Both the position numbers and the translations under genes were made by a program. Below, one piece after another: positions 20,529 through 24,029 of a stretch of 34,289 nt of DNA. The notes below the pieces were generated by a model. The model was not told the DNA's origin. It saw nothing but the letters and a program-made list of their open reading frames with translations, and made no database searches. Source of the stretch: an uncultured Mycoplasma sp. (GTDB lineage: Bacteria > Bacillota_I > Bacilli_A > RF39 > UBA660); assembly GCA_946500895.1 (NCBI GenBank), contig CAMMXG010000015.1, forward strand, positions 1 through 34,289, read 5' to 3'. Each line of letters begins with the position of its first letter. Within the stretch, counting starts at the first letter, position 1.

Positions 20529-20548
20529 CTTACCTATGGACAGTTTTT
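20529..20548 (+). repeat. left terminal inverted repeat of the IS4-family element
   Basis: It pairs with 21992-22011 at 17 of 20 positions; the shared core is ATGGACAGTTTT. The outer limit could be a few bases shorter. Confidence 0.75.
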
Positions 20549-20611
20549 CAAAATGAGCAAGATTGATATATAACACTATCCGTCTAAAACTCTTCTTAAA
20601 CCATATTAAAA

Positions 20612-20663
20612 ACAGCTCATTTATGCTACAATAGTTTTGTAAAATAGAAAGTAGCTGAGCTGT
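20612..20663 (+). promoter_or_regulatory. start-sequestering hairpin around the transposase promoter
   Basis: ACAGCTCA (20612-20619) is perfectly complementary to TGAGCTGT (20656-20663), which ends at the base before the ATG. Between them is an extended -10, TGC-TACAAT (-10 at 20627-20632), so the element's own transcript would start near 20639 and lack the left arm. Only a transcript entering from spoVB would fold the hairpin and hide the start region. Confidence 0.6.
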
Positions 20664-21812
20664 ATGTATAAATTATATAATACCCAAAAAGATTTTACAA
20701 CTAATTTAAAAGGATTTTTGAAAAATGCCATTCCTGACATTAGAAAAACACAACTGAATATTATTCCTTATATTATTTTTAGTATGATTATCTCTGAATC
20801 TTGTGTTCCTATGGATATGGCTAAAGTATTAAAAGATGAGTTCTCTTCTATTCAAATTAATTCTACTATTAAAAGAATTAGAAGATTTTTTTCTAATAAA
20901 TTATTTAAACCATATCTCTTCTATCAAAAGTTAATGATTTATATTTTAAAATCTTTTCATGCAAAACATATTGATAAAACTCTTTATATTACTTTCGACC
21001 ATATGTTTAGTAAATCTAATTATACTGTCTTCATGTTTACTTTAAAAATTGGTACTTTCGGTATTCCTATTTGGTTTAAATGCTTTAAAGATATATCTAA
21101 TAATGATGCTTTTAAATTAAATACGATTAAAGAAGGTATTGAAGCTGTTTCTAAGCTTTTTAAAAATACCGATTTTAAATTAGTATTCCTTGCTGACAGA
21201 TGGTTTGGCTCTTCTAAAATATTAGATATTATTGATAAACTTGGTCATATCTATGCCATTCGTATAAAAGGCAATATTATTGTTTATTTAAATGGTAAAA
21301 AAATAAAAGCCAAAAAACTAAAACATCATAAATATCATTCTGTCATTCATAAAGATGTTTATATCACGGATGACAGATATAAAACTACCATTGTTTATTC
21401 TCCTACCGAGAATACTAAGGATCCTTGGATTATTGTTACCAATGGCGATCCTTCTAAAGCATTAAAAAGTTATTCTTATCGTTTTGGCTCTATTGAATGT
21501 ATGTTTAAAGCCCAAAAATCCAATGGTTTTAATTTAGAAAAAGTTTCTAATGCTAGTTTAGAATCTTTTACTACTATGTATACCATGGTTTGTACTTGTA
21601 TTTTATACTTAACTATTTTAGGGGCTGATTACTCTAAAAATACACGATGTTACAAAAACATCCATTTAGAAACACACAAAACTTACAATATAGATGGAAA
21701 AAAAATAAAGAAAAGAATAATGTCTTTATTTAATACTGGTTTAACTCTATTTAAACTCGCATTTAATTCATCTATATACATTAGGATTCCTTTTCAACTT
21801 TATGATATATGA
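20664..21812 (+). CDS. IS4-family DDE transposase
   Basis: 382 residues, intact. DDE positions: Asp112 in YITFDHMF, Asp178 in VFLADRWFGS, and Glu278 in the IS4 signature YSYRFGSIECMFKAQKSNGF, where Y, R, E and K are arranged as expected (R to E spacing of four). The N-terminal helical part (1-100) probably binds the terminal repeats. It catalyses cut-and-paste transposition of this element. No frameshift or stop is seen, so the copy may be active. The binding site is poor (AGAAAG) and partly covered by the hairpin at 20612-20663, which would keep expression low. Confidence 0.92.
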   Translation: MYKLYNTQKDFTTNLKGFLKNAIPDIRKTQLNIIPYIIFSMIISESCVPMDMAKVLKDEFSSIQINSTIKRIRRFFSNKLFKPYLFYQKLMIYILKSFHAKHIDKTLYITFDHMFSKSNYTVFMFTLKIGTFGIPIWFKCFKDISNNDAFKLNTIKEGIEAVSKLFKNTDFKLVFLADRWFGSSKILDIIDKLGHIYAIRIKGNIIVYLNGKKIKAKKLKHHKYHSVIHKDVYITDDRYKTTIVYSPTENTKDPWIIVTNGDPSKALKSYSYRFGSIECMFKAQKSNGFNLEKVSNASLESFTTMYTMVCTCILYLTILGADYSKNTRCYKNIHLETHKTYNIDGKKIKKRIMSLFNTGLTLFKLAFNSSIYIRIPFQLYDI

Positions 21813-21834
21813 GTTCGGAAAATAAACTCTATCA

Positions 21835-21887
21835 ATGAAAAAAATGAGAAAAATTTTTTTGCGTGTAGTAATTTTCTCATTTTTCAT
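21835..21887 (+). terminator. hairpin after the transposase gene
   Basis: Long complementary arms, ATGAAAAAAATGAGAAAA against TTTTCTCATTTTTCAT, separated by about 20 bases. It probably ends the transposase message, though there is no clean T run. Confidence 0.5.
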
Positions 21888-21991
21888 TTGTATTTTGTAA
21901 TTCACTAAATAAAGTTGTAAATAAGTATAATTTTTCTAGTCTATTGGGCGTACTTTTTCTTTCACAAACCCGCATAAACACTGGGTTTATT

Positions 21992-22011
21992 CAAAACTGT
22001 CCATGGGTCAG
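21992..22011 (-). repeat. right terminal inverted repeat of the IS4-family element
   Basis: Reverse complement of the left end, 17 of 20 positions identical. Confidence 0.75.
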
Positions 22012-22056
22012 CAGGCAAACGAAAAAGGAGCATTTTGCTCCTGTAAAGTTTGTCTG
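22012..22056 (-). terminator. nested hairpin terminator after the surface protein gene
   Basis: The inner stem AGGAGCA/TGCTCCT (22026-22042) is followed on the minus strand by TTTTC. An outer 9-bp stem, CAGGCAAAC/GTTTGTCTG (22012-22020 with 22048-22056), is followed by T's on the plus strand. The inner hairpin can stop the minus-strand gene, and the whole structure may also stop plus-strand transcripts from spoVB or the IS. Confidence 0.7.
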
Positions 22057-22070
22057 TTTTTATATACCTT

Positions 22071-22107
22071 GCACGTCATGAAACGACGAATGGAGTTTCA
22101 GACGTGC
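22071..22107 (-). repeat. long inverted repeat across the stop codon of the surface protein gene
   Basis: GCACGTC plus TGAAAC (22071-22084, one bulged base) pairs with GTTTCA plus GACGTGC (22095-22107): 13 bp with a 10-base loop. No T run follows on either strand, so it is not an ordinary terminator. It lies about 43 bases past the end of the suspected variable region, where diversity-generating retroelements carry a target hairpin. Confidence 0.75.
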
Positions 22108-23374
22108 CATTTCCCTCGGAAAATTGGGTATCAGCTTTCAGATTAACTACTGGGCGTACACCCACCGACTCATCCGCGCCGTTGCCAGCGAGGCTGCCAT
22201 TTGCACTCACAAGGAACACGTAAGCATTGGCGTTAAAGTAACGTGGAGACATAGTCCAATAGACTTGGTGTGTATATAGGTAATAACTTGTGTTATTTGT
22301 TCCACATACTCCTCCAGCGTATGCTACTTCATCGGCTGTGATGAGGCCAATTGGATACGTTAATGATTTATTCCCTTTATTACTACTACTTATTGTGAAC
22401 AAATCACTACTATTTTGACATTCAAATGTTGGTGTTTTATTTTTGTATAGTCTGATATATGCAGCGTAGTAGGTTTTTGTTGTTCCAGTTCCTCCACTTC
22501 CGTTACTTGATGAAGAACTTGTACTTGGTTGTCTATCATTACAGAATCCTGCATTCATATCTATATCATCGGCATAACTTGCTAGATTATTTTGATACCA
22601 TGTATTGAGTACTCCTAATATTGTACTATTTGTTCCTGTTCCATGGACATCATTGGTTGTGTATTTAAATCCTACATACATGTTATCTTTATATGTTGAG
22701 TTAAATGCACTCGTATCTGATAATTGTGTTCCTGTTATTGTCGTACTTCTTCCATTATAGATTAATCTGATTGTTCCATCTCCATTGATTCGGATAATTC
22801 GCCAATAGTATCCTGCCCATCTTACCCAGTTATCACTTGGATTTCCTGCAAAATAGTATGTTGTTCCATCATCATCTTCAGCTTGGTATATTGTTCCTGT
22901 TGTATCTGTAGTTAGGGTGGTACTGAAGTCTGTTCTGGTTGCTAATGTTTTGCTTGCAATTAATTCTTGGATATTTGTTATTCCTTTTTCATCAAAATAT
23001 AAATAACACTTTGTTCCTTTTGTTGTCATTGGTGTTACATTTAAACTTTTGGTATCTACGTTGTATGATAAAGATATTGCTTCATCTCTTTCTCCGTTTA
23101 CTGTGCAGTAGCTTTCTTCTTCATTAAGTACATATCCTGATTCCGGAATAGTATCACTTTTGGTGTAACCACTATCGGAATTAATGTATACTCCTACTAG
23201 ATTGCTGTCTGCTAAATCATAGTTGATTGTTCCATTAACTAGTGGTATAGACTCTGTTACTCGGTATTTTGCCCTTGTAAAGTTTAATATTACTGCACTA
23301 ATTATTAGTACTCCTACTACTCCTATTATGATATTCCTTTTTAAATGGCTTTTCTTTAGTACTTCAAAATTCAT
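22076..23374 (-). CDS. membrane-anchored surface protein with C-lectin/FGE-like variable C-terminus (DGR target candidate)
   Basis: 432 residues from the ATG at 23374 (GGGAGAG ten bases upstream; the in-frame GTG at 23383 is too close). One N-terminal transmembrane helix (NIIIGVVGVLIISAVILNF) is followed by an exported body containing DNWVRWAGYYWRIIRINGDGTIRLIYNG, a Ser/Gly linker and the C-terminal block YWTMSPRYFNANAYVFLV...VGVRPVVNL, ending GNGTSETPFVVS. The VGVRPVVNL type of ending is that of C-type-lectin/formylglycine-enzyme-like folds used as DGR variable proteins. The block is GC-rich (57 of 100 bases at 22151-22250) against about 24 of 100 at 22361-22460, and rich in codons such as AAC, GGC, AGC, TAC, GCC. 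The ligand is unknown. No reverse transcriptase or template repeat is in the window. Confidence 0.7.
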   Translation of the reverse strand: MNFEVLKKSHLKRNIIIGVVGVLIISAVILNFTRAKYRVTESIPLVNGTINYDLADSNLVGVYINSDSGYTKSDTIPESGYVLNEEESYCTVNGERDEAISLSYNVDTKSLNVTPMTTKGTKCYLYFDEKGITNIQELIASKTLATRTDFSTTLTTDTTGTIYQAEDDDGTTYYFAGNPSDNWVRWAGYYWRIIRINGDGTIRLIYNGRSTTITGTQLSDTSAFNSTYKDNMYVGFKYTTNDVHGTGTNSTILGVLNTWYQNNLASYADDIDMNAGFCNDRQPSTSSSSSNGSGGTGTTKTYYAAYIRLYKNKTPTFECQNSSDLFTISSSNKGNKSLTYPIGLITADEVAYAGGVCGTNNTSYYLYTHQVYWTMSPRYFNANAYVFLVSANGSLAGNGADESVGVRPVVNLKADTQFSEGNGTSETPFVVS

Positions 23375-23570
23375 ATCTAACACTCTCCCATATGGTGCTA
23401 GGCTTCATTTTAAATTACATTAAAATAATCTATCATATATTTATAATAAGTTTCCTAGCTTATATTTAAATTATAAATATAGCTAGACAAAAAGTCAAGA
23501 AAAAGTTGCAATATTTCAAACTATTATTTTTTAAACTTTTATTAATTTTATAATCTTTTTGGTGAATAGT

Positions 23571-24029
23571 ATGGAAATATCTGAAAATTTAAAATTGTTT
23601 TTAGAAGAAAAAAAGCTTGATAAAATTACTGCGTCTAGTGTTGCAGATTATCTGGGTATCTCAAAGACAACTTTATCTAATTATGTTAATGGTGATGCTT
23701 ATATTCCTTTAAATCATTTAAATAGAATGTGTAACTTTTTTCATGTTTCTATGGATTATTTATTAGGGCTATCAGATATTGAAGTTTATTTTGATAATAT
23801 AGAATTAGAAAATTTAGACGCTAAAGAAATTGGCAATAGACTGAAAAATATTAGAAAAAGCAAAAAAGTAACGCAAGAACAGGTTTCTAAAACTATTGGT
23901 GTAAATAAATCTAGTATTAGTCGATATGAAAATGGTGAGAGTTTAATTCTTACTATATGTTTATATACTTTTTGTAAAAAATATTCTGTTTCAAGTGATT
24001 ATATTGTGGGGAAAACATCACATATTTAG
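23571..24029 (+). CDS. double helix-turn-helix XRE-family regulator
   Basis: About 152 residues with two HTH_3-type domains. The first (about 1-65) has ASSVADYLGISKTTLSNYVNGDAYIPLNHLNRMCNFF; the second (about 85-150) has IGNRLKNIRKSKKVTQEQVSKTIGVNKSSISRYENG. Both end in SxDYLLG/SSDYIVG, usual for Cro/CI-like repressors. The ATG at 23571 (GGTG six bases upstream) is preferred over an in-frame TTG at 23559. It is divergent from the surface protein gene across about 195 AT-rich bases, so it may control that gene; this is inference from position. Two fused XRE domains could bind both halves of one operator as a monomer. Confidence 0.82.
   Translation: MEISENLKLFLEEKKLDKITASSVADYLGISKTTLSNYVNGDAYIPLNHLNRMCNFFHVSMDYLLGLSDIEVYFDNIELENLDAKEIGNRLKNIRKSKKVTQEQVSKTIGVNKSSISRYENGESLILTICLYTFCKKYSVSSDYIVGKTSHI

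Follow-up and report, generated by a model that had tools for sequence, protein, structure and literature searches.

A lectin-like surface protein gene of an uncultured RF39 bacterium as a probable remote target of a diversity-generating retroelement with dispersed candidate template-RNA genes

The target gene and its variable region

The window, a 34,289-nucleotide stretch of DNA from an uncultured Mycoplasma sp. of the GTDB lineage RF39, contains a surface protein gene (Table 1) whose product ends in the segment YWTMSPRYFNANAYVFLVSANGSLAGNGADESVGVRPVVNL and carries its variable region (VR) at residues 380–411. The C-terminal part of the protein was predicted with pLDDT mostly above 90. Superposition of the model gave Z scores of 13.2 with an IgA peptidase (9qa6, N-terminal region), 6.4 with the C-terminal domain of Legionella Lcl, and about 4.0–4.6 with C-type lectins; the Lcl and C-type lectin matches, having Z below 8, are weak taken alone. 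Foldseek by itself gave no match below an E value of 0.001. The C-lectin-like ending that an earlier note had read from the sequence is borne out by the superpositions on the Lcl domain and C-type lectins. Judged from the predicted model, the product is a C-type-lectin-like variable protein with the VR at the 3′ end of its gene.

Table 1. Positions of the target gene, its variable region and hairpins, the cassettes of the window genome, and MutS domain I-like genes.
Feature	Position	Strand	Details
Target (variable protein) gene	22076..23383	-	435-aa ORF; N-terminal membrane helix, C-terminal lectin-like domain with VR
Variable region (VR)	22149..22249	-	5′ anchor TCTCC to 3′ anchor GGTGTACGCCCAGT; near-copies in 15 non-coding cassettes
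3′ anchor of VR, IMH-like, GC-rich	22149..22162	-	GGTGTACGCCCAGT in window; GGTGTGCGCCCA in cassettes and most paralogues
Hairpin/cruciform-capable inverted repeat	22071..22107	-	Over stop codon, ~42 bp past VR; 13-bp stem, one bulged base
Intrinsic-terminator-like hairpin, then T run	22022..22041	-	Ends target gene's transcript (predicted)
Cassettes on C5	26548, 27902, 29250		Lower ends
Cassettes on C11	41423, 42771		Lower ends
Cassette on C16	22994		Lower end
Cassettes on C18	20465, 21795, 22109		Lower ends
Cassettes on C22	13179, 14519		Lower ends
Cassette on C24	2176		Lower end
Cassette on C30	12725		Lower end
Cassettes on C45	4387, 4729		Lower ends
MutS domain I-like protein	L054:8289-8648	-	
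MutS domain I-like protein	L086:7489-7911	-	Pfam PF01624, E 1.2e-6 (type B)

The end of the gene had been described earlier as a high-GC variable block followed by a strong hairpin. The GC content is indeed 0.57 at 22151–22250 against 0.26 at 22351–22450, and the variable block is real, but narrower (22149–22249) than first reported. The hairpin just downstream is confirmed at 22071–22107: the 121 nt around it fold with z = −4.9, and none of 200 shuffles folded equally well. The diversity-generating retroelement (DGR) of BPP-1 has a hairpin beyond its VR that assists homing (PMC3240598), and by analogy the hairpin of the window may have a role in homing. Such a hairpin is not a universal mark of targets, as stems of at least 9 bp follow the VR in just 10 of 30 targets. 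The GRNA loop was looked for in the post-VR hairpins of targets and not found. No reverse transcriptase (RT) gene is apparent among the ORFs of the window, and the sole significant match of the template repeat (TR) RNA model there is the VR itself (22057–22274); both results agree with the earlier view that the window holds neither an RT nor a template.

Directly downstream of the target gene, an IS4-family transposase gene (20664–21812, + strand) lies inside an insertion (20536–22004) with terminal inverted repeats ATGGACAGTTTT at 20536–20547 and 21993–22004. The syntenic place in genome G014 (L248) has no room for the IS4-family insertion.

The genome of the window is represented by a 71% complete assembly of 1.28 Mb in 53 contigs. 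It contains 46 protein-level matches to the target protein, about 40 of which are paralogous genes. The family motif consists of YWTMSP, a variable stretch, and GVRPVINL. Across 30 family members, the eight columns of highest entropy all lie within residues 388–407, and the variable block therefore goes beyond chance. A direct VR comparison with a close orthologue of the window gene fails, as the syntenic gene of G014 is just 69% identical. In the orthologous target pair L029/L228, a sharply bounded block of ~1.2 kb diverges by ~25% (up to 40%) between flanks that are mostly 96–100% identical, a pattern that looks like an exchange of the extracellular part with a paralogue. This suggests that exchange of extracellular parts adds to the rewriting of VRs.

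Non-coding cassettes and the adenine footprint

Near-copies of the VR, expected elsewhere in the genome, were found at 15 non-coding places by DNA searches with one cassette and its 3′ element. One layout is shared by all 15 cassettes. The 5′ end is composed of GGTTAATCT, an unrelated linker of 13–21 nt, GTCTCC, and the TR block of about 90–110 nt. The 3′ end is composed of GGTGTGCGCCCA, a 3′ element such as AATATCCTTTTAAACTTAATATTTGGTTAAGGCTAAATAAAAAAGCATTAGGATACA, and AGATTAACC, which pairs with the 5′ GGTTAATCT. TATAAT stands exactly 12 nt before the RNA start in 10 of the 15. RNAalifold folds the cassettes into a closing helix and two nested 3′ helices, in which double changes occur, for example TATCCT/AGGATA versus TACCCT/AGGGTA. 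In a helix counting test, 100% of cells pair (21–49% when slid), and double-change cells across the three helices number 16, against 4.1 in shuffles. TR lengths vary by multiples of three, though the cassettes are not genes for proteins, as would follow if they must template in-frame VRs. Five cassette-bearing loci have no match to an Rfam family. The linkers were rejected as addresses, since in the examined DNA each is confined to one cassette and the orthologues of that cassette, and targets lack it. No RT lies near any of the at least 15 cassettes in the examined sequence. Thus, the search for a template returned near-copies, but at least 15 stand-alone cassettes instead of a single template beside an RT. 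Because the same model finds TRs adjacent to RTs, the cassettes are taken to be TR RNAs by architecture, and from its sequence each looks like a stand-alone template-RNA gene.

The order cassette–nuclease–cassette, with YhcG_C/DUF1016_N nuclease genes, occurs in the window genome and its nearest relatives (L057:4938–5855, L059:1684–2604). As several cassettes of the window genome flank genes with YhcG_C and DUF1016_N domains, the cassettes might be remnants of decayed genes, or a mobile element belonging to these nuclease genes. We find this hardly credible, since the arrays of genomes G017 and G030 have no YhcG-like gene between units, and decay would not account for conserved helices, in-frame TR lengths and a fold homologous to that of RT-adjacent TRs.

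The near-copies differ from VRs mainly where the copy has an adenine, as the earlier note had anticipated. In the 14 best-fitting VRs, with template switches allowed, 205 of 411 adenines are changed versus 35 of 951 other bases. The path search favours adenine changes by design, and we therefore give less weight to the Fisher value than to a free-base control, in which the total cost is 190 for A and 369–370 for C, G or T, and to an unconstrained alignment of VRs with their nearest cassettes, in which adenines are far more often changed in the better-matching VRs. Three VRs are free of any non-adenine change: C31_12701 (12/24 adenines, 0/75 other bases), C37_5114 (14/28 and 0/71) and L045 (12/32 and 0/67). 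Changes from another base in the cassette to an adenine in the VR are few (12/951), which gives the direction of change as cassette to VR. An origin of each VR from a single template fails for most VRs, which require at least two templates; the mosaics reflect either template switching or unseen templates. The older paralogues have no clear template among the cassettes found.

The VR of the window is also adenine-biased, with 16/30 adenines and 8/63 other bases changed in the best two-template fit (C5:26602 and C11:42792, cassette labels from the layout alignment), but it is not an exact adenine-only derivative of a template that was found. The template may lie in the missing 29% of the genome, or the VR may have drifted since its last rewriting. 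A stronger form of the latter is that the window gene is a retired target, whose VR was once made by a DGR and is now drifting by point mutation; the non-adenine changes, the altered anchors (TCTCCA and GGTGTACG) and the want of an exact template fit such a history. However, the VR retains the length, frame and position of the family, its adenines are still the bases more often changed, and some templates are missing together with the missing part of the genome. Retirement seems rather unlikely to us.

In vlsE and pilS antigenic variation, many non-expressed sequences are donors for surface proteins. The window genome resembles these systems in its many silent donors, and the cassettes could be moved by RecA-type gene conversion, without reverse transcription. 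Cassettes do swap segments among themselves, and the ~1.2 kb block of the L029/L228 pair appears to have been swapped as well. Nevertheless, only a few bases per end are shared outside the TR, donor-to-target changes are confined to adenines, and a gene-conversion model leaves the conserved RNA helices and promoter boxes unexplained. Here, unlike in vlsE and pilS, the donors appear to be structured RNA genes, and change is specific to adenines; we regard silent donation without an RT as very improbable.

Judged from the orthologues of two cassettes, template evolution seems slow, proceeding through sporadic changes and the exchange of segments, without hypermutation at every adenine. In two related genomes, the orthologues of C18:22109 retain the linker and almost every TR base; the codon following GTGTTC and the final codons differ. 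What appears to be the C5:27902 orthologue in G014 has the same linker and 5′ half but a different 3′ half.

Reverse transcriptases of the window genome and its relatives

A DGR RT, called for by the earlier note, is present in the genome. The type A locus on contig C2 contains a target with a VR, MutS-I-like ORFs, a TR, Avd, and an RT, which is the sole DGR RT found in the window assembly. The DGR-type RTs of types A and B contain GxxxSQ and YxDD motifs. The closest solved structure by RT sequence is the reverse transcriptase 8ub7 (E 3.3e-27), which we take to be the Bordetella phage DGR enzyme. The Avd proteins match the bAvd Pfam family, and NF033474 with E values of 7.6e-14 (type A) and 1.3e-9 and 6.5e-9 (type B), all scores lying below the curated cut-off of NF033474. 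The type A TR and its own VR differ at 20/32 adenines and 1/61 other positions. When the related genomes G000 and G003 are compared, 21/32 adenines and 0/61 other positions differ in the type A VR, against a single difference in the TR; by this comparison, a DGR RT appears to have left an adenine-only footprint between sister genomes of the lineage. The type A TR was rejected as the source of the window VR. Also rejected as DGR RTs were those at C5:57373, which is group II intron-like, and C5:3389, which is retron-like.

The type B RT has about 370 residues and is 47–48% identical to type A. Of 36 congeneric genomes, 18 carry an intact copy, one has it divided between two contigs, and five have a degraded copy. 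The type B locus encodes, in this order, a MutS-I-like protein, Avd, and RT, sometimes with one target of the window's family. A TR beside the RT is a usual but not strictly defining trait of DGRs; the RNA model revealed none in more than 20 type B loci, that of G017 included, and its matches there are coding VRs. Type B forms a supported clade (99/99) in the RT tree, from which no polarity is claimed because its rooting is distorted by the frameshifted L157 and L155 sequences. Close type B RTs in named records belong mostly to uncultured gut Bacilli MAGs, and also to Candidatus Caccenecus avistercoris (75%). The type B RT was not found in the 71% complete window assembly, and its presence in the window genome is therefore only presumed. 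Thus, DGR RTs exist in the genome and genus, but the type thought to use the cassettes is absent from the assembly.

Matches to the RNA model, comprising cassettes and weaker VR matches, occur in 34 of the 36 congeners; G002 and G023 have neither such matches nor a DGR RT match. G017, which is 99% complete and has type B as its single DGR RT, contains 11 cassettes above 100 bits, G028 contains 13, and G030 has a tandem array of 12. In the wider family, 42 of 193 genomes match the model; the copies form tandem arrays in G166 and G169 and are dispersed in G131. TRs close to DGR RTs of other lineages are likewise matched, among them the four-unit tandem array of L151. Tandem arrays consist of 4–12 TR-RNA units with a spacing of about 260–370 bp (L124:3372–4826, L125:4567–8034, L287 in G166, and L151:362–1746), and that of L151 lies directly upstream of the RT. 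In G024, G025, G031, G016 and G033, many model matches were found and the type B RT was not detected, which may be due to RT loss, a diverged RT, or gaps. G001, G007, G009, G011 and G013 keep many model matches and have a type B RT with stops or frameshifts, or a remnant of it, explained either by recent loss or by assembly error.

It could be argued that the type A RT on C2 serves the cassettes in trans and that type B is not needed. Type A is the only DGR RT of the assembly, and its TR RNA fits the cassette model, which finds it with 35 bits (E 3.5e-6). However, the RT that is widespread in the genus is type B, and G017 combines cassettes with type B alone; moreover, type A retains its own adjacent TR, the helix sequences of which differ from those of the cassettes. 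Service by type A is, in our judgement, improbable.

Proposed mechanism and comparison with known systems

We propose that the window gene is, with high likelihood, a remote target of a DGR with a split, multi-template architecture. The earlier suggestion of a DGR target served in trans is supported by the near-copies of the VR elsewhere, their adenine-biased differences, and the presence of DGR RTs both in this genome and in its genus. The enzyme would be made by an RT–Avd locus without its own TR, the type B locus seen in congeners and presumed here. At least 15 stand-alone RNA genes would each provide one template RNA, built of the 5′ strand of the closing stem, the 13–21-nt linker, the TR, and the structured 3′ element that closes the RNA. 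In BPP-1, a folded spacer on the 3′ side of the TR recruits bRT–Avd and primes the cDNA (PMC12875486); the 3′ element would occupy the place of this spacer RNA. The RT would copy the TR, misreading adenines, and the cDNA would replace the homologous 3′ block in one of dozens of lectin-like surface proteins, with the shared short anchors GTCTCC and GGTGTGCGCCCA marking the ends of the replacement. Cassette sequence, conserved structure, genomic layout and the adenine-biased footprint are the observed part of this mechanism. We infer from sequence that the cassettes are transcribed, that the RT acts on them, and that retrohoming takes place. The system would probably serve to vary what the cell surface binds, or to evade phages or host immunity.

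Somewhat doubtfully, we also put forward a V-gene-like repertoire, in which dozens of dispersed and tandem template-RNA genes would recombine with one another, template switching or repeated partial retrohoming would give combinatorial mosaics, and adenine mutagenesis would add hypermutation, in 30–50 surface receptors per cell.

The system resembles the BPP-1 DGR in its RT motifs GxxxSQ/YxDD, Avd, and adenine-specific TR/VR pair (PMC12875486, PMC3240598), and in the structured RNA 3′ of the TR, the GC-rich 3′ anchor, and the lectin-like target. Whereas TR, Avd, and RT of BPP-1 form one locus, the putative RT–Avd locus here lacks a TR, and the TR-RNA genes, at least 15 in number, are located elsewhere. 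The Treponema denticola DGR has one TR and seven targets (PMC4891356), cyanobacterial DGRs have remote variable proteins (PMC7517822), and Thiohalocapsa has trans activity, with 15 targets and several complete DGRs (PMC10907252). Several targets, some distant from the RT and altered in trans, are common to these DGRs and the present one, but in those the targets are remote, and here the templates are also remote and many. The accessible part of the MetaCSST survey reports some elements with 2 to 6 TRs, which likewise exceed one TR, and does not describe template-RNA genes that are dispersed, have separate promoters and bring their own closing stem (PMC6642488). Our literature search, with preprints and most subscription journals beyond its reach, found no such dispersed and separately promoted genes, no DGR RT conserved without an adjacent TR, and no such system in RF39 or Caccenecus.

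The enzyme and footprint of this DGR are ordinary, and its layout is new; it looks as if the single TR of a DGR became a dispersed RNA-gene repertoire feeding dozens of targets. Because DGR surveys seek repeats near the RT, they would overlook a system of this kind or class its RT as an orphan; Roux et al. state that their own approach would not detect remote targets (PMC8144416). A separately working TR RNA gene would show full uncoupling of template, enzyme, and target. It would make the minimal RNA parts for RT–Avd testable and could serve targeted mutagenesis. A further suggestion is that certain gut bacteria, despite very small genomes, maintain a large gene family just for surface variation.

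In both DGR types, the gene immediately upstream of Avd encodes a small MutS domain I-like protein, which perhaps takes part in mismatch or cDNA handling. In the window, a helix-turn-helix gene (23559–24029, + strand; XRE-like by eye) diverges from the promoter side of the target gene. Similar genes diverge from the type A target (L054:10762–11220, + strand) and the type B cis target (L086:9851–10303), and these neighbours of targets possibly regulate target expression.
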